A DNA stretch of 64,000 bases from Sinorhizobium meliloti. GTDB taxonomy: Bacteria; Pseudomonadota; Alphaproteobacteria; Rhizobiales; Rhizobiaceae. Positions 22,315 to 43,673 of the stretch are shown here, piece by piece (within the stretch, counting starts at the first letter, position 1; each line of letters starts with the position of its first letter). The DNA lies in NCBI RefSeq assembly GCF_035610345.1, contig NZ_CP141213.1, positions 806,001 through 870,000 on the forward strand, in the 5' to 3' direction. The notes under the pieces were generated by a model that searched no databases, was not told where the DNA came from, and saw only the letters and a list, made by a program, of their open reading frames with translations. The position numbers were made by a program, and so were the translations under genes.

Positions 22315-23583
22315 TCACATTCGAGATGGCAACCACGTCGCGATCGCAGGGACGAAAATAACGAGTACAGTCAGAGCGGCGAGCGCCACAACGAACGGCA
22401 AGACAGCTTTGGAGCCTTCCAGCAAATTCACTCTTGCAATGCCGCAACTGATGAAGAGGCTGGCGCCGACCGGGGGAGTTATTAGGCCGATTGCGAGCCC
22501 CATGACCGTTATGATGCCGAAATGGACCGGGTCGATGCCTACCTTCTGCGTAAGGGGCCAGAGGACCGGTACGAGAATGATGATTGCGGCTCCGAGATCC
22601 AGAACGGCACCGGCAACCAGATAGAGCGCAAGGATGAGCAGGAGGAGGATCTGCGGATTCGTGGTGATCTGCAGGATCATCTCGGCCGCCTGCTGCGGTA
22701 TCTGCTCACGGGTAATGATCAGCCCATAGAGTGTTGCGCCGGCGATCAGCAGCATCACGATCCCGGTCGTTATTGCCGCGTCGAGCACGATGCGCGGCAG
22801 GTCCCGGACGTGGATTGTACGGTACACCACCATGCCAACAACGAGTGCATATGCGACGGCGATGACGGACGCTTCCGTCGGGGTGGCGATGCCATAACGA
22901 ATGGAGCCGATGATGATGACCGGCATGACGAGGCCCCACAAGCTGGCGCGGAAGGCCTTGAGGAACGAGGCGAACTGCGGCTTCGGCCCACGGGGATATC
23001 CGGCACCGACCGAGCAGAGCCAAGCCACAGCGATCAGCGTCGCGGCCATGAGCAGACCCGGTACGAGCCCCCCGACGAAGAGCCTGCTGACCGATGCACC
23101 GGTCACCACGCCGAATATGATCAGCGGTACCGAAGGGGGAATGAGAACCGAGATGAGCGAACCGGACGCCACGACGGCAGCCGAGAAGCTGCGTGCGAAG
23201 CCCTTGTTGACCATTTCGGGGATCATGACGCCACCGATGGAGGATGCCTCGGCGACGGCCGAGCCAGTCATGCCGCCCATAATCGTGCCGCCGCCAATGC
23301 TCGCATGGGCGAGGCCGCCGCGCATCCAGCCCAGGGTCGCGTTGGCGAGATTCATGATGTCTCGCGCAATCCCGCTCTTGGACATGAGATGACCTGCCAG
23401 CAGGAAGAAGGGAATGGACAGCAGGATAAAGCTGTCGATTGCGGCCGTCATGCGCTGCCCTACCAGCGCCGGTGGGATGCCGCCGTAGAGGATGGCGGCG
23501 AGCGAGGCCAGGATCAAGGCAAAGGAAACCGGGACGTTAATGAGAAGAAGGGCGATGAACCCGAGGCCGAGGATTGCCGTCAC
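22315..23583 (-). CDS. dctM: TRAP transporter large permease subunit (DctM)
   Basis: A 422-residue membrane protein with 12-13 helices of the DctM family, the ion-coupled channel subunit of a TRAP importer. Family landmarks include SIPFFLLAGHLMSKSGI, GGGTIMGGMTGSAVAEASSIGGVMIP shortened here as GGGTIMGGMTGSAVAE, and LIPPSVPLIIFGVV. The start is a GTG at 23583 that overlaps the dctQ stop (GTGA), so translation is coupled; longer frames reaching 24120 belong to the wrong phase of dctQ. Sodium-driven uptake of an organic or sugar acid is expected. The apionate locus next door suggests D-apionate or a relative as ligand. Confidence 0.9.
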   Translation of the reverse strand: MTAILGLGFIALLLINVPVSFALILASLAAILYGGIPPALVGQRMTAAIDSFILLSIPFFLLAGHLMSKSGIARDIMNLANATLGWMRGGLAHASIGGGTIMGGMTGSAVAEASSIGGVMIPEMVNKGFARSFSAAVVASGSLISVLIPPSVPLIIFGVVTGASVSRLFVGGLVPGLLMAATLIAVAWLCSVGAGYPRGPKPQFASFLKAFRASLWGLVMPVIIIGSIRYGIATPTEASVIAVAYALVVGMVVYRTIHVRDLPRIVLDAAITTGIVMLLIAGATLYGLIITREQIPQQAAEMILQITTNPQILLLLILALYLVAGAVLDLGAAIIILVPVLWPLTQKVGIDPVHFGIITVMGLAIGLITPPVGASLFISCGIARVNLLEGSKAVLPFVVALAALTVLVIFVPAIATWLPSRM

Positions 23584-24074
23584 TGTGTTTTCTCCGAAAG
23601 ATCGAGCACGCTGTCGCGCTTGCCCGTGATCCAGGCACTGACAATGTCGCAGGCGATCAACAGGGTCATCACGCTGTAGCCGGCATAGATCCACCCCATT
23701 GGTATCTGCAGGATCGGCGAGGGCTGGGTCAGCGCGAGGCGGATCAGGGAAATGTTGGTCCAGAACGTGTAGACGCAGAGCGCCAGCACGAGGCCCTCGA
23801 CCAGCATTCTGGACCAGCGATGAAGCGCCGGGCTGTCGATGTAAATGACGGCGTCGACCGCGATATGCAGCCGGTATTTCCAGGCGAGCCATGCGGCGAG
23901 ATAGCTCACCCAGACGAAGATGAACCGTGCCAGTTCCTCGGTCCAGTTCAGCGGGTGATGGAAGAAATACCGGGCAACCACCTGCCCGAGGCAGGCGACG
24001 ACCATGATGGCGACCCCGATGATCAGCAGAGCCTGCATCAGGCGTTCGATCCATTTCCAGCCAATTATGAGCAT
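23580..24074 (-). CDS. dctQ: TRAP transporter small permease subunit (DctQ)
   Basis: A 164-residue membrane protein with four helices. The DctQ hallmark RYFFHHPLNWTEELARFIFVW (about residues 35-55) is present in the form FFHHPLNWTEELARFIFVW. It pairs with DctM to form the membrane unit of a TRAP transporter. The ATG at 24072-24074 lies 75 bases after the binding-protein stop, and the stop overlaps the DctM start by four bases. Confidence 0.9.
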   Translation of the reverse strand: MLIIGWKWIERLMQALLIIGVAIMVVACLGQVVARYFFHHPLNWTEELARFIFVWVSYLAAWLAWKYRLHIAVDAVIYIDSPALHRWSRMLVEGLVLALCVYTFWTNISLIRLALTQPSPILQIPMGWIYAGYSVMTLLIACDIVSAWITGKRDSVLDLSEKTQ

Positions 24075-24149
24075 AAGCGTCCCATCGTTTGAATGGGGCG
24101 ATGACGCAAGCCTGCGCCACCGCCCGAGAAGGTCGGGTTGGGCCTTGCG

Positions 24150-25109
24150 CTATTGAACCGACTGGATCTTTTCCAGAAGGGCCGGGTCTATGTTCTGTTG
24201 CGACGCCGCAAGATCGCGAAGCGCATCCCGGAACGACGTCGTGTCGATTTCGACCACCGTCATGCCCTTTTCCTTCAGCTTGGCGAGATAATCCTTCTCA
24301 AGCTCGGCAGCCTTCTCGCGCTGAAATCCGGTTGCCTCGGCGGCTGCTTCGGAGACGGCCGCCTGCTGTTCCGGCGTCAGGCTGTCCCATTTCATCTTGC
24401 TGAAAAGCGCAACATGCGGGCCATAGACGTGTCCGGTCAGCATGAGATGGCTTTGAACTTCCCAGAGCGAATTGACGTAGATGACCGTAATCGGGTTCTC
24501 CTGCGCATCAATGACGCCTTGGCCAAGGCTGGTGAAAACCTCACCCCAGACCATAGGCACGGGAGATGCGCCAAGTTTCTCGAAGGCGGCCATGTGCACC
24601 GGGTTCTGCATGGTCCGCAGCTTGAGGCCCGTCAGGTCTTCCGGCTTGGAGATTTCCTTCTTCGCCGTTAGGTGGCGCCAGCCGTTCTCCCACCAGGCCA
24701 GACCGTGAATGCCCCTGGTGTCAAACTTTCCAAGCAGGTCCTTGCCCACATCGCCGTCGAGCGTTGCATAGACGTGCGGGGAATCTCGGAAAAGGAAAGG
24801 CAGGTCGACAATGCCGATCTCCGGCGCAAAGGCCAGAAGCGGGCCGGTCGAGACGACCGCCATGTCGACGGAGCCGAACTGCAGCCCCTCGACCATTTCG
24901 CGTTCTTCGCCGAGCTGGCGGTCGGGGTAGACTTCGACTTTCACGTCACCATTCGTCTTTTCGCTCACGAGTTCGGCAAAGCGAACGAGCGCGAAATGCG
25001 TCGGGTGGCCCGTCGTTGTGCCGTGCCCTGCCTTGATGACGGTTTCGGCAGCGGCAGGAAGCGCCAGTGTGGTTGCAAGTGCGGCGGCGCACAACAGACG
25101 TCTGAACAT
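24150..25109 (-). CDS. dctP: TRAP transporter substrate-binding protein (DctP)
   Basis: A 319-residue periplasmic binding protein with a Sec signal peptide (MFRRLLCAAALATTLALPAAA). The family signatures are ELVSEKTNGDVKVEVYPDRQLG, LTGLKLRTMQNPVHMAAFEKLGA in short form LKLRTMQNP with the ligand-carboxylate-binding Arg, and GVIDAQENP. Such proteins bind sugar acids and other carboxylates. A GGGAGGAATCTTC ribosome site precedes the ATG. It begins a three-gene TRAP operon with its own promoter, which contains the motif also found at the two divergent promoters of the apiose locus. Confidence 0.9.
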   Translation of the reverse strand: MFRRLLCAAALATTLALPAAAETVIKAGHGTTTGHPTHFALVRFAELVSEKTNGDVKVEVYPDRQLGEEREMVEGLQFGSVDMAVVSTGPLLAFAPEIGIVDLPFLFRDSPHVYATLDGDVGKDLLGKFDTRGIHGLAWWENGWRHLTAKKEISKPEDLTGLKLRTMQNPVHMAAFEKLGASPVPMVWGEVFTSLGQGVIDAQENPITVIYVNSLWEVQSHLMLTGHVYGPHVALFSKMKWDSLTPEQQAAVSEAAAEATGFQREKAAELEKDYLAKLKEKGMTVVEIDTTSFRDALRDLAASQQNIDPALLEKIQSVQ

Positions 25110-25292: not shown

Positions 25293-26234
25293 CTATCGCA
25301 TCCTCCCTCCCGTGCCGGCCACGGCGAGAACGGCGATGATGACGACGCCCTGAAGAATATCCTGGATACCGGGGGGCAACCCCGCAATCTGCAGGGTGGT
25401 AACGATCATCACGAGAAGAACCGCCCCGAAGAGCGTGCCCATTGCAGTTGCACTGCCGCCGGCGATCAAGGTTCCGCCGAGCACGACGGCGCCGACGGAT
25501 TGCAACAGATACGGGGTGCCCATCTCGAGAAATGCACCTGCGGCGTAGCCGGAAAGCAGCATGCCGGTCAGTGCGGAGAGAAGTGCGCTTGTCACGAATG
25601 TCGAGCAGACGATGCGGCCGGTGCGGATGCCGGTGAGGCGTGCGGCCTGGACGCTCTGGCCGACCGCGAGCAGCTTTCGACCATGGGCGGAAAAACCAAG
25701 CATCAGGCCGATGAGGATGGTCAGGGCCAGTACGATGAGGAAGATCAGCGGGAAGCCGCCGATCTTGGCGGTAGCAAGCCATGCCAGAAGGGGCGGCGTC
25801 CCCATGCGCGTCACCATCGCATTCACGACGAGGGTCAGGGATGCAAGGATGTAGCCGGTTGCAAGCGTCGCGATCATGGCCGGGATGCGCATCAGGACGA
25901 CAAGACCCGCGTTGACGAGGCCTATCGCCAGCGCGGTGCCAAGAACGGCGCCGGTGGCCGCCGGAAGGCCGGCATCGGTGCCGCCTGACATCACGACCGA
26001 GATGTAGGCGCTCAAGGTCACGGTGCTCGGGATCGAAAGATCGATGTTGCCGCGGCCCGTCGTGATGACGAGCATCTGGCCAAGGGCCGGAAACAGCAGA
26101 AAGGACGCTGAGGTCGCCACGCCCGTCAGGCTGTAGATGCTCAAGCGCTCCGTCAGCATGACAAGGGCTGCCCATAACAGCAGGATGCCGGCAAGCGGCA
26201 GGACCCAGCGGCGCTCCGCGATCTGATCAAGCAT
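25293..26234 (-). CDS. Sugar ABC transporter permease (RbsC-like), second apiose-locus importer
   Basis: A 313-residue inner-membrane permease of the BPD_transp_2 family with about nine helices. Landmarks are MLVITTGRGNIDLSIPSTVTLSAY (the GxIDLS loop), GRKLLAVGQSVQAARLTGI (the cytoplasmic EAA-like contact for the ATPase) and AVVLGGTLIAGGSATAMGT. The ATG has an AGGAGGCACAG ribosome site and overlaps the end of the fused ATPase-permease by eight bases, so the two proteins should be made together. It supplies the second half of the membrane channel. It is the last gene of the long minus-strand operon. Confidence 0.88.
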   Translation of the reverse strand: MLDQIAERRWVLPLAGILLLWAALVMLTERLSIYSLTGVATSASFLLFPALGQMLVITTGRGNIDLSIPSTVTLSAYISVVMSGGTDAGLPAATGAVLGTALAIGLVNAGLVVLMRIPAMIATLATGYILASLTLVVNAMVTRMGTPPLLAWLATAKIGGFPLIFLIVLALTILIGLMLGFSAHGRKLLAVGQSVQAARLTGIRTGRIVCSTFVTSALLSALTGMLLSGYAAGAFLEMGTPYLLQSVGAVVLGGTLIAGGSATAMGTLFGAVLLVMIVTTLQIAGLPPGIQDILQGVVIIAVLAVAGTGGRMR

Positions 26235-28707
26235 TTCTGTGCCTCCTGACGAGAAGCGCCTGGAACCCGAGGATCAGGATCAGCAATCCTCCCTGGACGG
26301 CGGCGTTTACATCTGTGCTGACCCCGAGGGAGGCGAGAAGCGCGCCGATCAGGGAGAGCGTCACGGCCCCTGCTACGACGCCAGCCGGCGCGATCATGCC
26401 GCCGAGCAGCTGGCATCCCCCCATGACGACCGCAGCAATGCTCAGAAGCGTGAAGGATGAGCTCGCATTGATATCGCTGGCATTGTTGGTGGCGGTGACA
26501 TAGAGCCCGGCCACCATTGCGAAGATGCAGGCGATTGCATAGCGATAGACGGCGTAGCGGACGGGCGACCAGCCCGCACGTGTAAGCGCCGAAGCATTGG
26601 CGCCGAACCCGCGCAGGATGGTGCCGAGTGCCGATCCGTCGACGAAGAGCGCGGCCGCGGCCGCGAGGAGGATGAGAGCGAGGGGGGTCGGCAATCCCGG
26701 AATGCTCCACGAAAACAGCGCCGTCAGCCATTCCGGACTGCTGCCTCCGGGAGACGCTTGCAGCGTCTGCCCCGTCCCGATCCAGATGAAGGATGCGCCG
26801 AGCGTCACGACGATGGCAGGGATGGCGCGCGCCTGGATTAGGATGCCCATGAGGGCATAGCCGGCAAGGCCGGCCATTAGCGCCGCTGCGCCGAGGAAGG
26901 GGCTGGCCACCAGCAGCGTAGCGCTGATGACGTTGACGAGGCCGGTAAAGGCGCCCGCGCCAAGATCGATCTCACTGCCGCCCACCACGAACATCTGGGC
27001 AAGGGCGATGAGCACGAGCGGCACGGCAGGTGCCAGAAGAAGTTCCAGGCCGAAGGAGGATGCGACCAGCGGGTTCTTCATCGACATCGCGGCGAAGACG
27101 AGGATCAGGCTGGCAAACGGGATGGCCTTCATGATCGTGGGGCCGAGACGTCGCGGCGCGTTTCCGTCCTGTCCCGGTTCTTCGCTCGTCTTTCCGTGCT
27201 CGGCAAAAGACGATGCGACGATGGTGTCCTCGTCAATGTCCGTTCCGTGCAGTTCCCGGATGATGCGGTTCTTGGAAAAGACGAAGACGCGGTCGCATTC
27301 CAGGAATTCGAGATCTTCGGTCGAATACCAGATCACGAGGCGGCCGGCCTTCGCGATCTCTCGCACCAGGCGATAGAAGTCACGCTTCGCCCCTATATCG
27401 ACGCCGCGAGTGGGGTCGTCGAGCAGAAGGACGTCGAAATCATCAGCGAGTGCCCGGGCAACGAGCGCCTTCTGCTGGTTGCCCCCGCTGAGTTCCAGAA
27501 TTTTCGAGCCGAGGCGATTTTCATCGAGCCGAAGCCTTGCGGCAAGCGAGGCAGCGGCGGGGCGTTCGACTGCATCGCGAACCGCAGCGAAAGGACCGCG
27601 TGCCGCAATGCTGCCGATGGAAATATTCTGCAGCACCGTCCAGAGCGGAAAGACGCCCTCATTGGCCCGATCGCCGGATATGTAGCGGACGCGGCTTCCG
27701 GGTTTGAGGCCGCTCGTCCGGGGCTGCGAGAAGAGAGCCTGGAGCAGAGCTCGCTGGCCGCTGCCTTCGAGGCCGGCGAGGCCGACAACTTCACCACTCC
27801 GGAGTAGGAGAGCCCCCACCTGTTCCGTTGTGCGGGAGCGATCGAGCGTTACGAGAGCGTCGCCCGTGGCGGCCGCTCCGCTCCGCGCTTCGCGCTGCGG
27901 TGTGTCGTGCGCGCCGGGGCCGCCCATCGCCTCCACCATTTGCGGAACGGAGGCTTCTGCCGAAATCGCGCGCCAGACGATCTGCCCGTTCCGCATCGCG
28001 ATGACGCGGTCCGATACGTCCAGCACCTCCGCCAGTTTGTGGCTGATGAAGATGGTGGCCAGGCCTTCCGACGCTCGCTGCCGGACGTAGCGGCGAAGCT
28101 GCGCGCTGCGCTCGGCGCCAAGCGAGGACGTCGGCTCATCGAGGATGAGGAGGCGCAGCGAAGGGTCGGCGGCAACGCGGGCAATTTCGACCATCTGCCG
28201 TTCGGCAAGGCTGAGATCGGCGACGAGCGCGCTGGTGGAAACTTGTGCGCCGGGAAAGATCGCCTCGATGCTGGCGCGGGCGAGGTTGTGATAGACGCGG
28301 CGCCATAGCGGACGGCGGCCGGCAAGCTCCGGGCGTTCAACGTAGAAATTGTCAGCGACGCTGAGATTGCCGCAAAGCGACAGTTCCTGCCAGACGATCC
28401 GGACGCCCTGGCTCTGCGCAACGCGCGCCGAGAACCTGTGGGGATCGAGGGCAGTGCCGTTCCAGTGCACCGAGCCCTCGTCCGGCCGCGTCACACCGCA
28501 GACGATGCGCATCAGGGTGCTCTTGCCTGCACCGTTGGCGCCGATCAGGCCGATGACCTCGCCGGGGTGGACGTCCAGCGTGAGATTGTCATTGGCACGG
28601 GTGCTGCCATAGGCCTTGCCGATGCCCCGAAGCGAAAGCAATGCGGGTCGGTCACCCTCTGACGGTCGATAGTCCTCAGCTGGGGATATGGCGGCAGTCG
28701 GCTGCAT
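26227..28707 (-). CDS. Fused sugar ABC transporter ATPase and permease
   Basis: An 826-residue polypeptide joining two proteins that are normally separate. Residues 1 to about 500 are a tandem-domain sugar ABC ATPase: Walker A GANGAGKST (about 56), LSLAERQMVEIAR, Walker B LLILDEPTSSL; then a second half with the usual degenerate Walker A (GLEGSGQRALL) and an intact LSGGNQQKALVARAL and VLLLDDPTRGVD. From about residue 530 a BPD_transp_2 permease follows (VVGGSEIDLGAGAFTGLVN, GILIQARAIPAIVVTLGASF). The frame is continuous through the junction. The ATG at 28705-28707 follows AGAGGACC; an open frame extends to 28812 but overlaps the binding-protein gene. Confidence 0.87.
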   Translation of the reverse strand: MQPTAAISPAEDYRPSEGDRPALLSLRGIGKAYGSTRANDNLTLDVHPGEVIGLIGANGAGKSTLMRIVCGVTRPDEGSVHWNGTALDPHRFSARVAQSQGVRIVWQELSLCGNLSVADNFYVERPELAGRRPLWRRVYHNLARASIEAIFPGAQVSTSALVADLSLAERQMVEIARVAADPSLRLLILDEPTSSLGAERSAQLRRYVRQRASEGLATIFISHKLAEVLDVSDRVIAMRNGQIVWRAISAEASVPQMVEAMGGPGAHDTPQREARSGAAATGDALVTLDRSRTTEQVGALLLRSGEVVGLAGLEGSGQRALLQALFSQPRTSGLKPGSRVRYISGDRANEGVFPLWTVLQNISIGSIAARGPFAAVRDAVERPAAASLAARLRLDENRLGSKILELSGGNQQKALVARALADDFDVLLLDDPTRGVDIGAKRDFYRLVREIAKAGRLVIWYSTEDLEFLECDRVFVFSKNRIIRELHGTDIDEDTIVASSFAEHGKTSEEPGQDGNAPRRLGPTIMKAIPFASLILVFAAMSMKNPLVASSFGLELLLAPAVPLVLIALAQMFVVGGSEIDLGAGAFTGLVNVISATLLVASPFLGAAALMAGLAGYALMGILIQARAIPAIVVTLGASFIWIGTGQTLQASPGGSSPEWLTALFSWSIPGLPTPLALILLAAAAALFVDGSALGTILRGFGANASALTRAGWSPVRYAVYRYAIACIFAMVAGLYVTATNNASDINASSSFTLLSIAAVVMGGCQLLGGMIAPAGVVAGAVTLSLIGALLASLGVSTDVNAAVQGGLLILILGFQALLVRRHRNA

Positions 28708-28775: not shown

Positions 28776-29816
28776 TTACTTTGCTGTCTTGATCAGGTTC
28801 TCGTTCACCCATTCCTGGCTGAAGCTCGGGCTGATGATGAGGCCGGGCTTCAGGTCTTTCGCGGTCTCTGCGAGGTTGCTTTCGTCAACGGTGGCAACCG
28901 GCATGGTCATCTCCTTGGCGGGCGTCGCGCCCTTGACGATCTCGTAGGCAAGCCAGAATGCGGCGCCGCCGATGCCGGGCGTCGTGTTCATGGATGTCGT
29001 CTTGTAGCCCTTGGCTGCCTGTTCGGCCCACCAGATCACGAAATCGCTGGAGCCGCCGCCCTCGATGACCGGGAGCTTTTCAGCATAAGGACCGCCGGCC
29101 TGAACGAAGGCCTGCGCGATGCCATAGTCGTCGCTGCCGCCCTGGCCGAGAACCGCGTCCACCTGGCCGAGGCTCGGCAGCACGTTGGCGATTGCCGACT
29201 GCGCGACGGATGCCGTGGCTTGCCCGAAAACTTCGGCAACGACCTTGACGTCCGGATTGGCGTCGAGAACGGCTTTCTGGGCGCTGTACATCAGGTTGTC
29301 GGGACCGGAACCCTTCACGCCGCGCACAACGATGACGTTGCCTTTGTTGCCGATCAGTTCGAGCGTCTTCTTGGCCTGTTCGGTCTTGTAGCCCGTGAAG
29401 TCGAAGGAGAGCTTGTAAGCGCAGTCTGCCGTCAGGAGCGAATCGAACGCGATGATCTTGATGCCGGCGGCGCATGCCTTCTCGGCAAGGCCGTTCAGCG
29501 CGGTTTCCGAGGCGGCGTTGATGGCGATCGCATCCACGCCGCGCAGGATGAGCTCCGCCATCTGGCTGTTCTGCTGGTTGACGCTGCCATCGCCGTTCAG
29601 CACGACGAATTCGGCGATCTTGCCGTCCGCCTTGGCTTTTTCAGCCTCAGCTGTGAAGGCGTCGACCATCTGGCGGCGCCAGGTGTTGCCGTAGAACGAG
29701 TTGGACAAGGCGATTACCGGCTTGTCTGGCGAGGCGACGGCGACCTGAGGTGCTATCGCCAGCATCGAAATCGATGCCAGGCAGGCGAATGTGAAGCTGC
29801 GACGCAATGTGGACAT
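28776..29816 (-). CDS. Sugar ABC transporter substrate-binding protein, second apiose-locus importer
   Basis: A 346-residue periplasmic sugar-binding protein (Peripla_BP_4) with a signal peptide ending near APQVAVA. IALSNSFYGNTWRRQMVDAF opens the first lobe, and VDAIAINAASETALNGL and VDAVLGQGGSDDYGIAQAF hold ligand-facing residues. It lies 82 bases after the kinase gene and 68 bases before the fused ATPase-permease, so the operon carries catabolic enzymes and importer together. Solute-binding proteins specific for D-apiose are known in comparable loci; which of the two here has that role is not decidable by eye. Confidence 0.87.
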   Translation of the reverse strand: MSTLRRSFTFACLASISMLAIAPQVAVASPDKPVIALSNSFYGNTWRRQMVDAFTAEAEKAKADGKIAEFVVLNGDGSVNQQNSQMAELILRGVDAIAINAASETALNGLAEKACAAGIKIIAFDSLLTADCAYKLSFDFTGYKTEQAKKTLELIGNKGNVIVVRGVKGSGPDNLMYSAQKAVLDANPDVKVVAEVFGQATASVAQSAIANVLPSLGQVDAVLGQGGSDDYGIAQAFVQAGGPYAEKLPVIEGGGSSDFVIWWAEQAAKGYKTTSMNTTPGIGGAAFWLAYEIVKGATPAKEMTMPVATVDESNLAETAKDLKPGLIISPSFSQEWVNENLIKTAK

Positions 29817-34047: not shown

Positions 34048-34058
34048 GCCGTTCGTCC

Positions 34059-34886
34059 TCACGTGATCCGCCGAATGCTTTCGGTCAGCTCATCCCGGTT
34101 GAAGATGCGCTTCCAGTCATCCTTCATGAGAACGGGGATGCCGAATTCGATCGCCTTGTTGCAGGCATCGGAAAAAACGCCCGGCGTTTCCTCGAAGATC
34201 ACGGCGCCGAGCACGTTCATGTGGCCGAGCAGGAAGTCGCGAGCCGCCTCCTTTGGAACCCCTCGCGAAACGCACTCGTCCATCGCCTGGCGCATCACCA
34301 TGAGCAGGCTGGCGCACAATGTTTCCGAAAGGCCCGGCTCCAGCATCGCCATCTGATCGACGGTGATGCGGTGCGACCGCATGACGGGCGCCCAAATGAC
34401 TTTGGCGATCTCCTCGCCAAGCGCATAATGCGCCTCCGGTCCCTGCATCAGCGCCGAGACGATGTGCTGCTTTGCAGCCACGCCGCCGAAGAAGTCTCGC
34501 TTGGCGGCGGGATCGGTCTCGTCGTTGAAGATCGGTGGATGGCAGGGATGGGTGACGAAATAGGTCAGGTCGTCGCGGTTCGGCAGATGGCCGGCAAAGG
34601 GAGCGGCGGCGTCGAGAATGACAAGCATCGTGCCGGCGGCGAGCTTGTCCGCGATCCCGGCAGCGACCTTGCCTATGGCGGTGTCCGGCACGGCGAGAAT
34701 GACAGCGTCGGCGCCCTCCAGCGCGGCGTCCGCAGGAAGTGTGGAGAGCCCCAGTTCGGTTTGGAGGCGAGCCTTCCCCGCCTCGCTCACTTCCACATGG
34801 CGCACGTCGAAACGCGAGCCTTGGAGATTCTTTGCAAGACGGCAACCCATCTTGCCGCCGGCGCCGAACAGGGCAATCGAAGTCAT
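34059..34886 (-). CDS. apnO: D-apionate oxidoisomerase (first paralogue)
   Basis: A 275-residue protein of the 6-phosphogluconate dehydrogenase-like superfamily. MTSIALFGAGGKMGCRLAKNL is the NAD-binding loop. Family-specific segments are ILDAAAPFAGHLP, YFVTHPCHPPIFNDET and ALMQGPEAHYALGEEIAKVIW, then AMLEPGLSET. ApnO oxidises D-apionate and shifts a hydroxymethyl group to give 3-oxo-isoapionate. The ATG at 34886 has AAAGGACA upstream. It is the first of four overlapping catabolic genes. A clear paralogue is encoded at 41977-42822, so one copy may have a shifted specificity. Confidence 0.8.
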   Translation of the reverse strand: MTSIALFGAGGKMGCRLAKNLQGSRFDVRHVEVSEAGKARLQTELGLSTLPADAALEGADAVILAVPDTAIGKVAAGIADKLAAGTMLVILDAAAPFAGHLPNRDDLTYFVTHPCHPPIFNDETDPAAKRDFFGGVAAKQHIVSALMQGPEAHYALGEEIAKVIWAPVMRSHRITVDQMAMLEPGLSETLCASLLMVMRQAMDECVSRGVPKEAARDFLLGHMNVLGAVIFEETPGVFSDACNKAIEFGIPVLMKDDWKRIFNRDELTESIRRIT

Positions 34887-35893: not shown

Positions 35894-37410
35894 GCCTGCA
35901 CCTCTCTTGGCCCGGAAAGGCCCGTGGCAGAGGTCATTATGGCCTCCCGGTCGAAGTCACGGCGCGCGAAGCTGCCGGTCAGTTCGCCGCGGTTGATGGT
36001 GAGGATGCGGTCCGAAAGGCCGATGAGTTCCTCGATCTCGGACGAGATGAGCAGAACGGCGCTTCCGCTCTCAACGAGGCTGTTGATGATGCGGTAGACT
36101 TCCTGCTTCGCCCCGACGTCGATGCCACGCGTCGGCTCGTCGAGGATGAACAGGCGAGGCTGGCGGAGAAGCCATTTGCCGATGACGACCTTCTGCTGGT
36201 TGCCGCCCGACAGGTGCTTGACCATCGTGTCGTCGACCTTGGCCGTCGAAAGATGCATCGCACGGCCCATCTCGGCCGCGACAGTGCTGATCCGCCTTCG
36301 ATCGACCAGGCCGAATGCGCCGGCGACTGTCGGCAGCGAAGCGAGCACCATGTTCTCGGCGATCGTGAAATCCATGACGAGGCCCTCGCCACGGCGGTCC
36401 TCGGTCAGGAACGCGACGCCGGCGGCCATCGCCGTTGCAGGCGTCGGATCGGCAAGCAGCCTGCCGTCGATGCGGATTTCCCCGCGCGCAAATCGATCGA
36501 GGCCGAACAGCATTCGAGCGAGTTCCGATCGACCGGAACCCATAAGCCCTGCGAGGCCCACGACCTCCCCGGCGCGAATCTCGAAGGTGATGTTTTCCGC
36601 CACGCCAGGCTGGCTGAGGCCCGAGACGGAAAGAACGATGTCGCTCGTCGGTTTGACGGAGCGCTCCGGGTAGATGGCGTCGATCGACCGCCCTACCATC
36701 AGGGAGATGATGCGCTGCACGTCGATCGCAGTTGTTTCCGCGGTGCCTGCGACATGCCCGTCACGAAGGACTGCGATGCTGTCGCAGACCGCCATCACGT
36801 CTTCCAGCGCATGACTGATGTAAATGATGCCGATGCCACGGCTCTTCAGCCGGCCGATGATAGCGAACAGGCGTTCGACTTCCGGGCGCGTCAGAGAGGT
36901 GGTCGGCTCGTCGAAAATGATGAGCCTGGCATTGCGCGACAACGCCTTGGCAATCTCGACGAGTTGTCGCTCACCCTGGCTGAGTTTCGACACCGGCGTC
37001 GATGGCTGGTGCGAAATATCGACCTGCGCCAGGTACTCTTCCGTCTGCCGCCGGATCTGCGCACGGTTGATGAAGGGCAGGATATTTCGCCGGGGGAACC
37101 TGTCGATGAAGAGGTTTTCCTCGATCGTCAGGTTCGGGAAGAGGTTGAGCTCCTGGTGAATGAACGCGATTCCGGCCGCCGAAGCATCCTTCGGATCGGC
37201 CGGGGCATAGATAGCGCCATCGAGCCGCATACTCCCGGCGTTCGGCTTGTGGACCGCGCCGAGGATGTTCATGCTGGTCGACTTGCCGGACCCGTTTTCA
37301 CCGACAAGCCCCAGTGCCTTGCCCTTTTCGACCGAGAAGCCGACGCCGTGCAAGACGGTTACCCCGAAGAACGATTTGGTCAGGCCTTCGACTTCCAGAA
37401 GTTTCGTCAT
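35890..37410 (-). CDS. Sugar ABC transporter ATP-binding protein, first importer
   Basis: A 506-residue tandem-domain ATPase of the ribose/xylose type. The first domain has Walker A GENGSGKST (about residue 38), LSQGERQLVEIAKAL and LIIFDEPTTSL. The second has the family's degenerate Walker A (GLMGSGRSELA), DRRGEGLVMDFTIAENM, LSGGNQQKVVIGKWL and LFILDEPTRGID. The ATG at 37408-37410 has AGGAC upstream; frames that extend to 37812 run through the upstream permease gene in another phase. It lies between two permease genes and energises both. Unlike the second importer of the locus it is not fused. Confidence 0.9.
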   Translation of the reverse strand: MTKLLEVEGLTKSFFGVTVLHGVGFSVEKGKALGLVGENGSGKSTSMNILGAVHKPNAGSMRLDGAIYAPADPKDASAAGIAFIHQELNLFPNLTIEENLFIDRFPRRNILPFINRAQIRRQTEEYLAQVDISHQPSTPVSKLSQGERQLVEIAKALSRNARLIIFDEPTTSLTRPEVERLFAIIGRLKSRGIGIIYISHALEDVMAVCDSIAVLRDGHVAGTAETTAIDVQRIISLMVGRSIDAIYPERSVKPTSDIVLSVSGLSQPGVAENITFEIRAGEVVGLAGLMGSGRSELARMLFGLDRFARGEIRIDGRLLADPTPATAMAAGVAFLTEDRRGEGLVMDFTIAENMVLASLPTVAGAFGLVDRRRISTVAAEMGRAMHLSTAKVDDTMVKHLSGGNQQKVVIGKWLLRQPRLFILDEPTRGIDVGAKQEVYRIINSLVESGSAVLLISSEIEELIGLSDRILTINRGELTGSFARRDFDREAIMTSATGLSGPREVQA

Positions 37411-37418: not shown

Positions 37419-38456
37419 CTATCGGTTTACCAGGAGGTGATGGCGAAACGTGTCGACCGTCGCTGCAAGCAGGATGACGCCGCCCTTTATGATGTAGATC
37501 ATGAAGAGCGACGACCCGAGCAGCTTCATCGACGTGTCGATGAGCAGCAGGAAGAGCACGCCGAATACCGTCCAGACGATCTTGCCCTTGCCGCCGAAAA
37601 GGCTCGTGCCACCGATGACCACCGCGCCAATGACGTCGAGCAGGATGTTCTCGCCGGCGATCGGGGAGCCGGTCTGCATGCGCGAGGCGTACATCATCGC
37701 TGCGACGGAGGCGCAGGCGCCGCTGATGAGGAAGGTCAACAGGATGGTGCGGCTGACCGGCACGCCGGAAATCCGGGCGGCGCTGGAATTTGCGCCGACC
37801 GCATAGACCCACCGCCCGAACTGTGTGTGCGACAGCAGGACATGGGCAGAAAGGCCGATAAATACGGCGAGTGCCACCGTGTAGGGAACGCCGAGGACGG
37901 CCCCGGTCGCAAAGGACGTGAAGCCCTCCGGAAGATTTGCGATGGAGGACGATGTCGAATGGAAGGTCACGTACCAGATTGCGAGACCTGCGAAGAACAT
38001 TCGCGTGGCAAGCGTGACGATGAAGGAGGGCATGTTGAGCTTCACGACGGAGAGCCCGTTGACGGCGCCGACCAGCACCCCGACGGCCAGCATGGCGACA
38101 ATTGCGGCGGGAACGGCGAGGGCGGAGCCCGACAGATAGCCGTCCGTGCCCGTCATCACCGAGGCGCCGACGACGGCGGCCATGGAAATGATCGCGGTGA
38201 TGGAGAGGTCGATGCCGGCAATGATGAGGACGAAGGTCTGCCCGATGCCGACGACCAGCAACGGCATCATGTCGCCCAGAATGTTAGACGCCACCTCCCA
38301 GGAAAGGATCTCGGGCACGAAAGGGTAGATTGCCGCTACGTAGACGACGCAGAGGACGAGGACGAAATATTCCGAGAGAAGGATTTTCGCCCAACGCAGT
38401 GCTCTCGGTCGCTCAGTAGGTGCCGCAAGCGTGTCGCTTGACGCTGAAAGTGGCAT
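37419..38456 (-). CDS. Sugar ABC transporter permease, first importer, second subunit
   Basis: A 345-residue BPD_transp_2 permease. FVLIIAGIDLSITAIISMAA, VVKLNMPSFIVTLATRMFF, GRWVYAVGANSSAARISGVPV and GAVVIGGTSLFGGKGKIVWTVFG match the family. The ATG at 38454-38456 is preferred since CGAGGCCGAA precedes it; a GTG at 38507 is the upstream alternative with a poor ribosome site. It ends nine bases before the ATPase start. It is the second gene of the operon, after the binding protein. Confidence 0.88.
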   Translation of the reverse strand: MPLSASSDTLAAPTERPRALRWAKILLSEYFVLVLCVVYVAAIYPFVPEILSWEVASNILGDMMPLLVVGIGQTFVLIIAGIDLSITAIISMAAVVGASVMTGTDGYLSGSALAVPAAIVAMLAVGVLVGAVNGLSVVKLNMPSFIVTLATRMFFAGLAIWYVTFHSTSSSIANLPEGFTSFATGAVLGVPYTVALAVFIGLSAHVLLSHTQFGRWVYAVGANSSAARISGVPVSRTILLTFLISGACASVAAMMYASRMQTGSPIAGENILLDVIGAVVIGGTSLFGGKGKIVWTVFGVLFLLLIDTSMKLLGSSLFMIYIIKGGVILLAATVDTFRHHLLVNR

Positions 38457-38609
38457 TTCGGCCTCGTTGTCGAACTCATCGAATGGTGGGCGGACACGCG
38501 GCTCCACCTGTCTGCTATGGACTGCAGCAGGAGGAGCCGCGCCGCCCGGGAGAATTGTGGCGGACCGGAGATCGGCGGAACGCGCGTCCGCGTGCCGGAA
38601 GCCCGGAAA

Positions 38610-39617
38610 TCAGCCGGGGTTCTTTTCCTTCCAGAGAACGTAGCCCCACATCTCGGCCGCCTTCTCGCTCATGTTGGCCTGGGTGATCGCGAAACCGGGA
38701 TCGAGGAGCAATCGATCGACCGTCTTGCCCTCCTGCAGGTCCAGAATGGCCTGGATGGCGAGTTCGGTTTCGAAGAACAGGTTCTGAACGCCGCAGGCAT
38801 CCATGTAGCCGTCCTTCATCAAGGCATAGGCATCCGGGAAACCGTCGAAGCCGGTGAAGATGACGTGGCCTTCTTCGCCGACCTTGTGCCACTTGTCCGC
38901 AGATTTCAGCGCCTGCTGGATCTGCGGGATCAGGAAATCCGATGATGTGAACAGGAACGAAATGTCTGGATTGGCCTGCAGGGCATTGGTCAGGCCCGCA
39001 AACGCGGTATCGGCGTTCCATTCCGTCGGGATCTTGGCGACCACCTCGATCGTGTCGGCGAACTGGGCGACCGCTTCTTCGAAACCGTCGCGGCGCTGGA
39101 TGGCGTTGGGATCGCCGAGATCGCCGATCAGGATTGCGGCCTTGTGCTTCTGACCGGATTTCTTCGCCACCTCGCATGCGTAAGTCACGGCATCGCGCGC
39201 GATCTTCTGGTTGTCCGCCTGAATGGCGACCGAGAAAGCCTCCGTCTTGGCCGGCGGGCGGTTGAAGTGCACCATCGGGATCTTGGCCTCGTTTGCAGCC
39301 TTGATCGCCGGGATGACCGCGTTGGAATCCGTCTGTACAATGATGATGCCGTCTACCTTGCGGGCGATTGCTGCACGAACCTGCTCGAACTGCTTGTTGT
39401 CGTCCTGGTCGGAGATCGCTTCCATGATCTCGAAGCCGCGCTTCTTGAGATCGTCGCGAATGATCTGAATGCCCGCCACCCAGAATTCCGAGTAGAGCCC
39501 GTCGAAAAGGACGGCAATCGTCTTCTTGCCCTGCGCCCGGACAGCAAGGGTCATGCCGCTCGTCGCCGCAAGCCCTGCCAGTGTGGCGACGGTGAATTCA
39601 CGTCTTGTCAGTGTCAT
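38610..39617 (-). CDS. Sugar ABC transporter substrate-binding protein, first importer, Tat-type signal
   Basis: A 335-residue periplasmic sugar-binding protein (Peripla_BP_4). The N-terminus MTLTRREFTVATLAGLAA has a twin-arginine pattern (TRREFTVATL) and a cleavage region near VRAQG, so export may use the Tat pathway instead of Sec. KKTIAVLFDGLYSEFWVAGI opens the mature protein, and VDGIIIVQTDSNAVIPAIKAANE and FNRPPAKTE line the cleft. The ATG at 39617 follows GGAGGAGAGCGCA. It is the first gene of the long minus-strand operon, transcribed away from the GntR gene. Confidence 0.88.
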   Translation of the reverse strand: MTLTRREFTVATLAGLAATSGMTLAVRAQGKKTIAVLFDGLYSEFWVAGIQIIRDDLKKRGFEIMEAISDQDDNKQFEQVRAAIARKVDGIIIVQTDSNAVIPAIKAANEAKIPMVHFNRPPAKTEAFSVAIQADNQKIARDAVTYACEVAKKSGQKHKAAILIGDLGDPNAIQRRDGFEEAVAQFADTIEVVAKIPTEWNADTAFAGLTNALQANPDISFLFTSSDFLIPQIQQALKSADKWHKVGEEGHVIFTGFDGFPDAYALMKDGYMDACGVQNLFFETELAIQAILDLQEGKTVDRLLLDPGFAITQANMSEKAAEMWGYVLWKEKNPG

Positions 39618-39702
39618 TGCGCTCTCCTCCCAAAGAACTTGTTCAGATGGCACCGCCATCTACCGATCGGGTTCTCCTCAATCGTGTACGGCTGGACGTT
39701 AG

Positions 39703-39715
39703 GTCATCATATATG
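39703..39715. promoter_or_regulatory. Candidate operator in the divergent binding-protein/gntR promoter
   Basis: The sequence gtcatcatatatg contains CATATATG, a palindrome, and shares GTCATCATAT with the opposite strand of the site at 40563-40577. It is placed about 90 bases from both divergent starts, where a GntR/FCD repressor would act on both genes. Confidence 0.45.
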
Positions 39716-39808
39716 TAATGTCAATCTTGCTCCACGCCTGTTTGCCGCGGAGATTCGGATTGCTATGAAGAACGCGGCAAGGTGGTTGCGCCGTCTTTGG
39801 AGAGTCGA

Positions 39809-40522
39809 ATGGAGCCAGTTCAAAAAAAGAAGCTTTACGTCGAGGTGCTCGACCGGCTGATGGAGGCGATCTCGACCTCTGAGTTTCCGCCTGGTTCGCA
39901 GCTCCCTTCGGAAAAAGAGCTGATGAACATGATCGGCGTCGGGCGCCCCTCGATTCGCGAGGCCATGCTGGCAATGCAGCAAATGGGCCTGATAAAGATC
40001 TCCCACGGGGAAAGGGCGCGCGTCATCAACCCCACGCCGGACGTCATCGTTGCTCAGATCTCGGCGGCGATGATCATGATGCTGGCCACCAATCCCAGGG
40101 GCTTGCAGGAGTTGAAGGAGGTGCGGCTCCTGCTCGAAACCGGTCTGGTGCGCGTCGCGACACGGCGTGCGACGGCGCGCGACCTCGATCGTCTCGCTGA
40201 CTCCATCCGTCAGCTTCAGGAGGCTCGGGGCGACCAGGCGCGCTTCGTCGCTGTCGATATGCAGTTCCACGTGATCATCGCCGAGATGAGCGGAAATTCG
40301 ATGATCGCTGCCGTTTCGAAAGGCATGCTCGACTGGCTTTCGCGCTTCAAGCGCGATCTCGTCGCCATGAAAGGCGCGGAGCGCCTGACGATCGAAGAGC
40401 ATGAGCGCATCTACAAGGCAATCGCCGGCGGCGACGCGGAGGCCGCCGCTGCGGCGATGGCCGAGCACATCGATCGGGCAAACGAGCTCTATTCGAAACT
40501 GAAGACCTCCGCACAGCCTTAA
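39809..40522 (+). CDS. GntR-family regulator with FCD ligand domain
   Basis: A 237-residue transcription factor. Residues 1-75 are a GntR winged helix (KLYVEVLDRLMEAI, PPGSQLPSEKELM, VGRPSIREAMLAMQQMGLI). The rest is an all-helical FCD domain with the metal-binding Asp and His residues in VRLLLETGLVR, DMQFHVIIAEMSGN and MAEHIDRANE. FCD members usually sense sugar acids or other carboxylates and act as repressors. The ATG at 39809 follows TTGGAGAGTCGA; a GTG at 39782 is upstream. Its place between the two arms of the apiose locus and the shared motif at three promoters make it the likely regulator of the whole locus. Confidence 0.88.
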   Translation: MEPVQKKKLYVEVLDRLMEAISTSEFPPGSQLPSEKELMNMIGVGRPSIREAMLAMQQMGLIKISHGERARVINPTPDVIVAQISAAMIMMLATNPRGLQELKEVRLLLETGLVRVATRRATARDLDRLADSIRQLQEARGDQARFVAVDMQFHVIIAEMSGNSMIAAVSKGMLDWLSRFKRDLVAMKGAERLTIEEHERIYKAIAGGDAEAAAAAMAEHIDRANELYSKLKTSAQP

Positions 40523-40577: not shown

Positions 40578-40635
40578 AACTCTTTTTGGTGCTACTTCCT
40601 CCGTATAGTCATGCGGTCAGCGCCAGGAAGTGCCC

Positions 40636-41916
40636 GTGGAATCTCGAATTGTCGCCACCTACCTCATTGAAACGCGCTATCCGCTGGAGGTTGCCGCGGC
40701 CGCCATGGCCGGTGAGCAGTCGAGCGGAACCTTCCGTCCCCTTCCGGGCGAGACCCCGGAGCTCCTGAGCCGGTACGGGGCGCGAGTCGAGGCGATCGAC
40801 GATCTTGGCGAGGCGGATGTCCCGTCCCTGCCTCATTCCCGTCCGCCCAAGGGTCATTCTTCTGCCCGGCCGCGGCGCGCCAGGGTCACCCTGTCCTGGA
40901 GCCTCGACAATACGGGCACGATCCTTTCTTCCGTCTGGTCCACGGTGCTCGGTAATCTCTTCGAGCTCCACCACTTCTCGGCGATGAAGCTTCTCGATCT
41001 CGTGCTGCCGGACGCCTTCGCCGATGCCTATCCTGGGCCTGCCTTCGGCATCGAGGGGACGCGGCGGCTGACCGGTGTCACCGGCCGACCGATCATCGGC
41101 ACGATCATCAAGCCGAGCGTCGGGCTGACGGTCGAGGCGACGGCTGCGCTTGCAGACACGCTCATCTCCGCGGGACTCGATTTCATCAAGGACGATGAAC
41201 TCATGGGTGATCCGCCGCACTCACCGTTCGCCGAGCGTTTCGGTGCCGTCATGGACGTTATCGACCGCCATGCGGACCGCACCGGCCGCAAGGTCATGTT
41301 CGCCGCGAATATTTCCGGTGACATGGACCAGATGCGCCGTCAGCTGGACCTGATTGAAAAGCGTGGCGGCACCTGCGCCATGCTCGTCCTCAACTCGGTC
41401 GGCCTGCCGGGCGTCATCGACGTCCGGCGCCACTCTTCAGTTGCAATCCATGGACATCGCGCCGGCTGGGGTCTCTTCAGCCGCTCCCCCGATCTCGGCC
41501 TCAGCTACACCGCATACCAGAAGTTCTGGCGCCTGGCGGGAGTCGACCACATGCATGTCAACGGCCTGTCGAACAAGTTCTGCGAAACCGACGCCTCCGT
41601 CATCGACTCCGCCCGCTGTTGCCTGACCCCGATGTTTTCCCGTCCCGACCGCCCGGACACGGTGATGCCCGTCTTCTCCTCCGGTCAGTCGGCGGTGCAG
41701 GCGGAGGCGACCTATGCCGCGCTTGGAACCAACGATCTCATCTATTGCTGCGGCGGAGGCATCATGGCCCATCCGGGCGGGATCGCGGCAGGCGTGCGCA
41801 GTCTTCAGGAGGCATGGGAGGCGGCCGCCAGGGGTGTTCCCGCCCGCGACTACGCGGCAACGCATCAAGACCTCGCCGCAGCGCTCGAGACCTTCGGCGC
41901 GGGTGCCGGACGATGA
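40636..41916 (+). CDS. RuBisCO-like protein (form IV), probable 3-oxo-isoapionate-4-phosphate-cleaving enzyme
   Basis: A 426-residue RuBisCO large-chain homologue. Many active-site positions are kept: Lys159 in GTIIKPSVGL (RuBisCO K175), the carbamate lysine and acidic metal ligands in LDFIKDDELMG (K185, D187, E188), HR in IHGHRAGWG, His and Lys in HMHVNGLSNKF, and CCGGGIMAHPGG. Two positions differ: K177 is Ser and H298 is Trp, so it is not a carboxylase. In D-apionate pathways, RuBisCO-like proteins either decarboxylate 3-oxo-isoapionate-4-phosphate (OiaC) or cleave it to 3-phosphoglycerate and glycolate (OiaX). The absence of erythrulose-phosphate isomerases here leans towards OiaX. The start is a GTG after AGGAAG; GTG at 40630 is an alternative. 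Confidence 0.85.
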   Translation: MESRIVATYLIETRYPLEVAAAAMAGEQSSGTFRPLPGETPELLSRYGARVEAIDDLGEADVPSLPHSRPPKGHSSARPRRARVTLSWSLDNTGTILSSVWSTVLGNLFELHHFSAMKLLDLVLPDAFADAYPGPAFGIEGTRRLTGVTGRPIIGTIIKPSVGLTVEATAALADTLISAGLDFIKDDELMGDPPHSPFAERFGAVMDVIDRHADRTGRKVMFAANISGDMDQMRRQLDLIEKRGGTCAMLVLNSVGLPGVIDVRRHSSVAIHGHRAGWGLFSRSPDLGLSYTAYQKFWRLAGVDHMHVNGLSNKFCETDASVIDSARCCLTPMFSRPDRPDTVMPVFSSGQSAVQAEATYAALGTNDLIYCCGGGIMAHPGGIAAGVRSLQEAWEAAARGVPARDYAATHQDLAAALETFGAGAGR

Positions 41917-41976: not shown

Positions 41977-42822
41977 ATGACGATTTCTGTGGCAGTGCTC
42001 GGTGCAGGCGGCAAGATGGGATTCCGCGTCACCCGCAAGCTTGTCGAAGCGGGATATGACCTTCGTGCCGTCGAGATCGGCGATGCCGGCCGCGACCGCC
42101 TGTTGGAGGCGAACATTAAGCCGGTTACGTCGGAAGAGGGCATTCCCGGCGCGAAGGTCGTGGTCATGGCGCTGCCCGACAACATGATCGGGGAGGTCGC
42201 GCGGCAGATTTCGCCGATGCTGCAATCCGGCGCGATGCTGCTTATCCTCGATGCCGCGGCACCCTACGCGGAGGACCTTCCGAAGGATCGTCCCGACCTC
42301 ACCTACTTCGTCGGCCATCCTTGTCATCCGCCGCTATTCAACGACGAGACGGAATGGGACGCGCGGCGGGACTATCACGGCGGCATCGCCAAGCAGTCGA
42401 TCGTATGTGCGCTGATGCAAGGACCGGAGGAGCACTACGCGCTCGGCGAGGAAATCTGCAAGGCCATGTGGTCGCCGATCATCAACAGCTACCGCGTCAG
42501 CGTGGAGCAACTCGCCATCCTGGAACCGGGACTGTCGGAAATGGTTGCCATGCCGTTCGTCGACACGATGGTCGAGGCGGTCGAAGAATGCGAGAAGAAG
42601 TACGGTATCCCGCGCGAGGCCGCGCTCGATTTCCTGATCGGCCACCTGAATGTCGAGATCGCCATGTGGTTTGGATATTCACCGAAGGTGCCTTCCGATG
42701 CAGCGCTACGCCTGATGCGTTTCGCCAAGGGCGTCGTGGTGAAGGACACCTGGCGCGACGCGCTTTCGCCTGCGAGGGTCAAAGAAGCATCTGAACTCAT
42801 CGTTTACGGCAAGGGGGCCTGA
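41977..42822 (+). CDS. ApnO-like oxidoisomerase (second paralogue)
   Basis: A 281-residue homologue of the apnO product. The same landmarks are visible: VAVLGAGGKMGFRVTRKL, ILDAAAPYAEDLP, YFVGHPCHPPLFNDET, ALMQGPEEHYALGEEICKAMW and AILEPGLSEM. The two proteins differ over much of the C-terminal third (here MWFGYSPKVPSDAALR). It follows the RuBisCO-like gene by 60 bases and GAGAGAAACG precedes its ATG. It may be the true D-apionate oxidoisomerase, a second isoform, or act on a related branched or tetronic acid. Confidence 0.8.
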   Translation: MTISVAVLGAGGKMGFRVTRKLVEAGYDLRAVEIGDAGRDRLLEANIKPVTSEEGIPGAKVVVMALPDNMIGEVARQISPMLQSGAMLLILDAAAPYAEDLPKDRPDLTYFVGHPCHPPLFNDETEWDARRDYHGGIAKQSIVCALMQGPEEHYALGEEICKAMWSPIINSYRVSVEQLAILEPGLSEMVAMPFVDTMVEAVEECEKKYGIPREAALDFLIGHLNVEIAMWFGYSPKVPSDAALRLMRFAKGVVVKDTWRDALSPARVKEASELIVYGKGA

Positions 42823-42881
42823 CGCTGGTTTCCAACTCTCGCATCGTTTCGGTTTCGACGGCGCTCTTCGACGGCTACCCC

Positions 42882-43673
42882 ATGGAGATGGCAGTCGAGG
42901 AGATCGCCGACGCCGGTTGCCTCCACGTAGAACCAGCCTTCATCAAGGGCTACGTCGATTTCGATGAAACAGCGTTCTCGCCTTCGGCGGCCGCGCGCCT
43001 CAGCAACCTTGCGGTTGCCAGAGGGGTGCGCATCCACGCGGCCTCGGCACATCTGGACCTATCGGAGCCGGATGCTGCGGCGGCCCTGATCCGGCGGCTC
43101 GATTTCGCCGCCGATCTCGGTGCTTCATTCCTGATCACCAATTCCGGACCGGCAGGCAAGCGCGATGCCATCAGAGCGACGGTAGAGGCAGTGATCCCCC
43201 AACTGGAGGCAAGCGGCCTCACCCTCGCTCTCGAGAACCCGGGACACGGAAGCGGCAATCTCACGGGTATCGTCTCTGATGCGGCCATTTTCCTGGGCGA
43301 AATCGGGTCACCGCGCGTCCGTCTCAATCATGACACGGGAAATGTCTTCACCTACAGCAGCGAAGCACGCCAGCCTGCGGAGGATCTCGCCGCGGCGCCG
43401 AATTTGGTGGCGCATGTTCATCTGAAGGACGTGAAGTCTACGAATGAGGGCTGGGTGTTTTGCGCACTCGGCGATGGCGACGTTGATCTTGCGAACTACT
43501 GGTCGGCGATGCCCGTAGGTCTCCCCGTCACCATCGAGCTCCCACTTCGCCTTGGCCGGCCACGGCGAGCTGATCCGCAGAGGTATCCAAGGCCGCTGGA
43601 CCTTGCCACGATACGAAGAGAGCTGACAGCCTCACTTCGGTATATAGGCACCCTTGAGGCTGTTCCGGACTGA
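42882..43673 (+). CDS. Xylose-isomerase-like TIM-barrel protein
   Basis: A protein of at least 263 residues with the sugar-phosphate isomerase/epimerase TIM barrel. Metal-binding residues lie in LALENPGHGSG, RLNHDTGNVF, VAHVHLKDVK and VTIELPLRLG. The first ATG in frame is at 42882. However, 19 codons upstream of it read SNSRIVSVSTALFDGYP, which looks like the missing first beta strand, and the only possible initiators there are CTG codons at 42819 and 42825 next to AAGGGGG. The real start may therefore be non-AUG. It is the last gene of the RuBisCO-like operon. A sugar-acid isomerase or decarboxylase role is possible; I cannot fix the reaction. Confidence 0.75.
   Translation: MEMAVEEIADAGCLHVEPAFIKGYVDFDETAFSPSAAARLSNLAVARGVRIHAASAHLDLSEPDAAAALIRRLDFAADLGASFLITNSGPAGKRDAIRATVEAVIPQLEASGLTLALENPGHGSGNLTGIVSDAAIFLGEIGSPRVRLNHDTGNVFTYSSEARQPAEDLAAAPNLVAHVHLKDVKSTNEGWVFCALGDGDVDLANYWSAMPVGLPVTIELPLRLGRPRRADPQRYPRPLDLATIRRELTASLRYIGTLEAVPD

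Follow-up and report, generated by a model that had tools for sequence, protein, structure and literature searches.

The described system closest to the locus reported here is the D-apiose pathway ApsD-ApnL-ApnO-OiaK-OiaC, which was reportedly worked out by Carter et al. in 2018. OiaC, a RuBisCO-like protein (RLP), must hydrate and cleave its substrate like RuBisCO, giving 3-phosphoglycerate and glycolate, while OiaX stops at decarboxylation. The DUF1537 tetronate pathways (LtnD/OtnI/OtnK/OtnC) pass through a dehydrogenase, a PF01261 isomerase and a DUF1537 kinase before carbon-carbon cleavage. The enzymes of the D-apiose pathway are listed in PMC11747546, and according to PMC6302742 the RLP of Agrobacterium K84 is the decarboxylase and that of Xanthobacter the transcarboxylase/hydrolase. 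We analyzed a 64,000-bp window of Sinorhizobium meliloti (C2:806001-870000 of a 6.63-Mb genome), in which 18 genes between positions 22315 and 43673 form a locus containing candidates for all five enzyme types of the D-apiose pathway, with an RLP that groups with proteins named OiaC. It differs from that pathway in having a second, deeply divergent ApnO (ApnO2), a triosephosphate isomerase (TIM)-barrel partner of the PF01261 family, an RLP gene away from the kinase gene, and two arms that diverge around gntR.

As the apiose pathway is already known, the locus is no new kind of system. What seems to be new within the literature searched, in which the main pathway paper was not included, is the conserved pair of ApnO2 and TIM-barrel protein, which together with an OiaC-side RLP clade makes up a separable core. 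We read the whole as an accessory two-arm catabolic locus, an apiose arm plus an OiaC-type RLP, to which ApnO2 and its TIM-barrel neighbour add a second entry leading to the same intermediates, and give this reading roughly an even chance. A first-pass annotation had proposed a D-apiose/D-apionate locus with an RLP, and this is supported by gene families, neighbours and named relatives; the families that it listed (dehydrogenase, ApnL, two PGDH_C proteins, DUF1537 kinase, RLP, two ATP-binding cassette (ABC) importers, a tripartite ATP-independent periplasmic (TRAP) importer and GntR) are all present. The PF01261 gene and the divergent two-arm layout went unmentioned there.

A constant core in a variable locus

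The plus-strand arm consists of the GntR/FCD regulator, RLP, ApnO2 and the TIM-barrel protein, in that order, with two operator-like sites flanking the regulator gene:

39703..39724, plus strand: operator-like site 1 in the divergent promoter region; similar motif in nine compared loci
39809..40522, plus strand: GntR/FCD regulator; PF07729, PF00392
40561..40574, minus strand: operator-like site 2, between gntR and the RLP gene; motif search
40630..41916, plus strand: RLP on the OiaC side of the tree; PF00016, 220.6 bits
41977..42822, plus strand: ApnO2, divergent oxidoisomerase subfamily; PF16896; PDB 3c24, 413 bits; tree; residues
42882..43673, plus strand, true start probably about 42819-42846: PF01261 TIM-barrel protein; 74.2 bits; upstream frame; fold

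The window with a 26 kb flank was compared with eight relatives, using 40-60 kb of each. Gene order is largely maintained in these eight other genomes of the family, which argues that the locus is not a chance grouping. RLP, ApnO2 and the TIM-barrel protein are encoded in all nine loci, as is ABC importer 2 (the copy of genome G219 has a partial ATPase gene and lacks the sugar-binding protein SBP2), and gntR is present in eight, not being found in G137. The other genes are less constant: ApnO1, ApnL and OiaK occur in seven loci, ApsD in five, ABC importer 1 in five and a TRAP importer of at least 74% identity in three, with the ApnO1, ApnL, OiaK and ApsD of G208 belonging to a neighbouring OiaX-type set. 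In G133 and G137 the RLP-ApnO2-TIM core has none of ApsD, ApnL, ApnO1 or OiaK within about 29 kb, apart from a partial 30% Gfo/Idh/MocA match about 27 kb from the core of G137, and both genomes carry an ordinary ApnO and OiaK elsewhere. The kinase gene lies on the same strand as the RLP gene and within 300 bp of it in 83 of 99 OiaC-side loci versus 0/9 window-type loci; among the 16 loci lacking this adjacency, a contig edge cuts off four, and in three the kinase is 323-507 bp away.

These features could mean that RLP, ApnO2, the TIM-barrel protein and ABC importer 2 form an independent catabolic module acting on a branched sugar or acid distinct from D-apionate, using an undescribed two-step rearrangement and an RLP of new specificity separated from its usual kinase partner, a proposal that we regard as tentative and rather unlikely. 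All nine window-type genomes hold at least one ordinary ApnO and an OiaK somewhere, so the core need not work alone, a point that also counts against the second-entry reading.

The evidence favours OiaC over OiaX

The first-pass annotation had left open whether the RLP is OiaC or OiaX, and identity, phylogeny and conserved residues now favour OiaC (transcarboxylase/hydrolase). With the OiaX model NF042437 the window RLP scores 446.5 bits against a cut-off of 700, while the genome's other RLP, to which it is 46% identical, reaches 787 and is a true OiaX. The seven of 120 listed homologues that carry the name 3-oxoisoapionate-4-phosphate transcarboxylase/hydrolase all share 61-62% identity with the window RLP. 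An RLP tree was built by a quick method from 62 chosen rows, with Shimodaira-Hasegawa-like approximate likelihood ratio test (SH-aLRT) support only, and took in the nearest Xanthobacteraceae kin of those seven proteins in place of the seven themselves. The 19 window-type RLPs form a single clade (SH-aLRT 100, stem 0.36) within the non-OiaX side, where the Xanthobacteraceae RLPs also fall, and OiaX is excluded from this group with support of 100.

Window-type and other non-OiaX RLPs agree against OiaX at 26 alignment columns (each group at least 90%). At H309, which aligns with RuBisCO H327, all 94 window-type rows and all 143 other non-OiaX rows have His, and all 18 OiaX rows have Gln. Given the RuBisCO-like hydration and cleavage expected of OiaC, the retained H309 fits this assignment. 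The metal-binding and catalytic residues K161, K187, D189, E190, H276, H309 and K316, equivalent to RuBisCO K175, K201, D203, E204, H294, H327 and K334, are present in 94/94 window-type rows, and all of them except H309 are identical across the three RLP groups. Position A278 sets the window type apart, being Ala in 94/94 of its rows and Asn in 129/143 other non-OiaX and 18/18 OiaX rows.

Several points weigh against the OiaC assignment. Most of the 120 listed RLPs are just as similar to the query and carry the name RuBisCO large chain or no name at all, and as the same source gives the former name to many equally close proteins, the seven OiaC names are a pointer and not proof. Xanthobacter OiaC itself was not found among the sequences searched, so the link to OiaC is at the family level. 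There are also three columns (195, 198 and 229; at least 85%) where window-type RLPs agree with OiaX against the others, and OiaX is the only RLP model of the pathway in NCBIfam that matches the window protein at all. An OiaX decarboxylase duplicating the genome's other OiaX is nevertheless very improbable, as the score is far below both the cut-off and that of the true OiaX, while the tree, the 26 columns and the residue matching RuBisCO H327 all side with the non-OiaX RLPs.

Related RLPs were seen in other gene settings. A haloarchaeal plasmid (Halalkalicoccus, L118 11995-15496) carries an OiaC-side RLP gene with a kinase gene and an ApnO-type gene, and other haloarchaeal plasmids match the RLP too. 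On a Croceibacterium plasmid, a related RLP (60%) and a kinase are encoded among beta-galactosidases, an alpha-L-fucosidase, GH28 and other glycan hydrolases, company that fits apiose derived from pectin such as rhamnogalacturonan II.

A deep ApnO2 subfamily linked to a TIM-barrel protein

ApnO1 and ApnO2 both contain the PGDH_C domain (249.6 and 202.2 bits, cut-off 25) and are 49% identical. In a quick-method tree of 91 ApnO rows, left from 101 after near-copies were dropped, ApnO1 places among the ordinary ApnOs, adjoining the genus's own, while ApnO2 belongs to a clade of 13 rows with support of 100 on a stem of 1.39 changes per site. Proteins of the ApnO2 type (at least 69% identity) were found in 11 of 394 family genomes, and no additional one was found in 385 genomes drawn from the class. 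In all 11, the TIM-barrel gene lies within 360 bp of the ApnO2 gene; it was found in 16 of the 394 genomes, giving a Fisher P of 5.7e-18 for co-occurrence with kinship ignored. The remaining five are G391, a same-species genome with a deletion described below, and four with relatives of only 38-40% identity. Similarly, the TIM-barrel gene is present in five of the 99 OiaC-side loci, precisely those with ApnO2; two of these five belong to a single Hoeflea genome, and among the 99 at least one other genome is counted twice.

ApnO2 could instead be an isozyme of ApnO, with every gene of the locus serving one D-apiose/D-apionate pathway and the TIM-barrel protein acting as a helper, e.g. a repair or epimer-converting enzyme; this is a serious possibility, although we hold it to be somewhat less than probable. 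Across 14 rows, ApnO2 keeps 51 of the 66 columns conserved to at least 97% in 87 ordinary ApnO rows, including the HPCHP motif. Residue changes of the subfamily include F138 to H134, T194 to M189, A197 to M192 and G241 to K237. In G255 and G296 it is the sole PGDH_C protein, in loci with ApsD, ApnL, OiaK and RLP (the count covered 12 genomes, and G296 is 83% complete), and as these two have no other ApnO candidate, ApnO2 may itself carry out the D-apionate step. Two Rubellimicrobium loci likewise have ApnO2 as the only ApnO in the stretch read, together with ApsD, RLP and kinase, ApnL not being detected there, and the operator-like sites are common to both arms. Against an isozyme, ApnO2 is a deep clade and no recent copy, and the core stands apart from the apiose genes in G133 and G137. 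The second-entry reading that we prefer has to accommodate G255 and G296, and also the nine near-invariant ordinary-ApnO positions that are replaced in every ApnO2, with six more replaced in part. The proposal in the first-pass annotation, drawn from two oxidoisomerases and three importers, that the locus serves more than one substrate has partial and indirect support: the deep ApnO2 subfamily tied to the TIM-barrel protein and the two of nine loci with a core lacking apiose genes speak for it, and the apiose-type loci of G255 and G296 against it.

The TIM-barrel protein itself passes the PF01261 gathering score (74.2 versus 31.1 bits). Its gene has no ATG, GTG or TTG between an in-frame stop at 42792 and the first ATG at 42882, and the frame upstream of 42882 reads VSTALFDGYP, matching homologues. 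As these conserved N-terminal residues precede the first ATG, translation probably begins 12-21 codons before it, at a rarer codon. The candidate metal ligands E118, D151, H180 and E219 are invariant in 32 aligned rows (32 of 120 listed homologues). The predicted structure (mean predicted local distance difference test score 95.5, predicted template modelling score 0.92; one of five models kept) has a fold that resembles ketose 3-epimerases and isomerases, although identity to such PF01261 enzymes (UlaE, D-tagatose 3-epimerase, Art22) is only about 10-22%. The order of chemistry in the tetronate pathways is shared with the locus, where the last enzyme is an RLP instead; ApnO2 had no threonate-dehydrogenase model match and the TIM-barrel protein no OtnI model match (E 0.001).

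OiaT acts ahead of an erythrulose kinase, and the TIM-barrel protein might be a decarboxylase of this kind, converting 3-oxo-isoapionate to L-erythrulose in a branch lacking the DUF1537 kinase. Distant TIM-barrel homologues (26-40%) do sit beside DhaK-type kinases in four of five annotated plasmid regions examined, and one of the 38-40% relatives, in Sinorhizobium fredii, is encoded in the order ApnO-DhaL-DhaK-TIM (L212 4449-8038), possibly another apionate route. We consider this function unlikely for the window protein, as DhaK is absent from 10 of 11 loci, the exception adjoining the neighbouring OiaX-type set of G208. Moreover, three of the 12 genomes tested (G201, G187 and G255) have no Dak1 match, and none of 17 weak PDB profile matches is named a decarboxylase. 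DhaK-type kinases occur in 9/12 of these genomes and OiaK-type kinases in 12/12.

The apiose arm and a second apiose pathway in the genome

From 39659 downward, the minus strand encodes ABC importer 1, ApnO1, the ApsD-like dehydrogenase, ApnL and the OiaK-like kinase, followed by ABC importer 2 and the TRAP importer. In coordinate order, the features are:

22315..23583, minus strand: TRAP importer large permease (DctM); TIGR00786, 406.4 bits
23580..24074, minus strand: TRAP importer small permease (DctQ); gene call; clusters with the small gene in the TRAP sets of G187 and G201
24150..25109, minus strand: TRAP substrate-binding protein (DctP); TIGR00787, PF03480; PDB relatives 4nq8, 4pdh, 4p9k
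25293..26234, minus strand: ABC importer 2 permease; sugar ABC permease models, scores under cut-offs
26227..28641, minus strand, start uncertain, up to 28812: ABC importer 2 ATPase fused to permease; similar-length homologues in relatives
28776..29816, minus strand: ABC importer 2 sugar-binding protein (SBP2); PF13407; PDB 4pe6, 214.7 bits
29899..31200, minus strand: OiaK-like DUF1537 kinase; NF042436, 433.5 bits (cut-off 700); PF07005 and PF17042
31197..33017, minus strand: ApnL, D-apionate lactonase; NF049900, 785.8 bits (cut-off 750)
33010..34062, minus strand: ApsD-like Gfo/Idh/MocA dehydrogenase; PF01408; PDB 5uhw, 466 bits
34059..34886, minus strand: ApnO1, ordinary D-apionate oxidoisomerase type; PF16896; PDB 5t57, 442 bits; tree
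34913..35893, minus strand: ABC importer 1 permease; profile match
35890..37410, minus strand: ABC importer 1 ATPase; profile match, gene call
37419..38507, minus strand: ABC importer 1 second permease; profile match
38610..39659, minus strand: ABC importer 1 sugar-binding protein (SBP1); ribose-type models under cut-offs; PDB 7e7m, 83.8 bits

ApnL scores above the cut-off of its NCBIfam model. A structural relative of the ApsD-like enzyme, PDB 5uhw, is titled just "Oxidoreductase protein", and we assume it to be ApsD of strain K84. The kinase falls well below the cut-off of the OiaK model, which was reached in none of the 12 genomes tested, the window genome's other OiaK (463 bits) included; its low score is thus not special, the cut-off omitting a whole branch, and we infer that the window kinase works like OiaK.

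The genome encodes a second, OiaX-type apiose pathway in two stretches. OiaX lies with OiaK and GntR at C2:203-206 kb, and ApnL (830 bits), an ApsD homologue (60%), ABC-importer homologues and an ApnO 83% identical to ApnO1 lie at C2:249-257 kb. The upper steps are thus alike and OiaK and GntR have homologues in both, whereas this pathway ends in a true OiaX and no TIM-barrel match was found in the two stretches. By eye, the genes adjoining the OiaX/OiaK pair read as a molybdenum-type dehydrogenase with cytochrome c (L024 10206-20117). OiaX scores above its cut-off in 18 of 60 genomes, the window genome included. Only the window genome, among 32 of its genus searched, has a full-length second RLP (446 bits), the match in G008 being partial; at least 14 of the 394 family genomes list one RLP at least 51% and one at most 48% identical to the window RLP, so two RLP kinds in one genome are not unique.

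In G391, the remaining left arm is 98-100% identical to the window and 5,459 bp are missing (window 37406-42864), spanning the start of the ABC importer 1 ATPase gene, a permease gene of the same importer, SBP1, gntR, RLP and ApnO2. The region contains no N and the junction shares just 2 bp (L206), and either a genuine deletion or a misassembly may explain the gap.

The fusion of ATPase and permease in ABC importer 2 (26227-28812) is also found in homologues of relatives. Elsewhere in the window (49795-58233), genes read by eye as allantoin and glyoxylate breakdown genes (gcl, hyi, glxR), the hyi-like gene matching PF01261; Gcl was not seen near the apiose locus in the other species searched. 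Just past the window, G000:C2:871119-872384 encodes a further DUF1537 kinase (142-140 bits to the OiaK model) with an LtnD-like gene nearby, perhaps a tetronate locus.

A putative operator common to both arms

A motif like GTCATCATATATGTnnTGTCAA precedes gntR in nine loci (the RLP gene in G137), while the divergent neighbour varies between SBP1, SBP2 and ApnO1. It has one match in the window and none in 100 shuffles. Its 14-base core has two exact sites genome-wide, at window positions 39703 and 40561, and six further sites one base off; a reversed control pattern gave none. Seven of the nine loci carry the two sites with no more than one mismatch, and G137 has a single site. G187 has weaker sites with two mismatches, a level at which about one chance match is expected per 64 kb, and one more right before ApnO2. 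The simplest reading of this pattern is a putative shared operator through which one GntR may control both arms.

Proposed pathway and significance

The sequence itself shows the gene families, their phylogeny and linkage, the conserved residues and the operator-like sites, from which we infer every substrate and product as well as the regulation. Both arms would probably be under one GntR regulator. D-apiose would be imported by an ABC importer and oxidized to D-apionolactone by the ApsD-like enzyme; ApnL would open the lactone to D-apionate, which ApnO1 would rearrange to 3-oxo-isoapionate for phosphorylation by the OiaK-like kinase. The OiaC-type RLP would then split 3-oxo-isoapionate 4-phosphate into 3-phosphoglycerate and glycolate, unlike the genome's OiaX. 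The second entry would most likely serve a related acid or sugar arriving via ABC importer 2 (plus the TRAP importer where present), with ApnO2 performing a variant oxidation and rearrangement and the TIM-barrel enzyme a metal-dependent isomerization alongside.

This rhizobial genome is predicted to finish apiose breakdown in two ways, by OiaC and by OiaX, so that a single strain would allow a comparison of how each is used. The analysis also brings to light the strictly linked enzyme pair of ApnO2, with PDB 3c24 as a relative of solved structure, and the TIM-barrel protein, as well as an RLP clade that accompanies this pair in every locus read and never adjoins the kinase. In plant-associated bacteria, these together would make a clear target in the search for new steps or substrates linked to RuBisCO-like chemistry.

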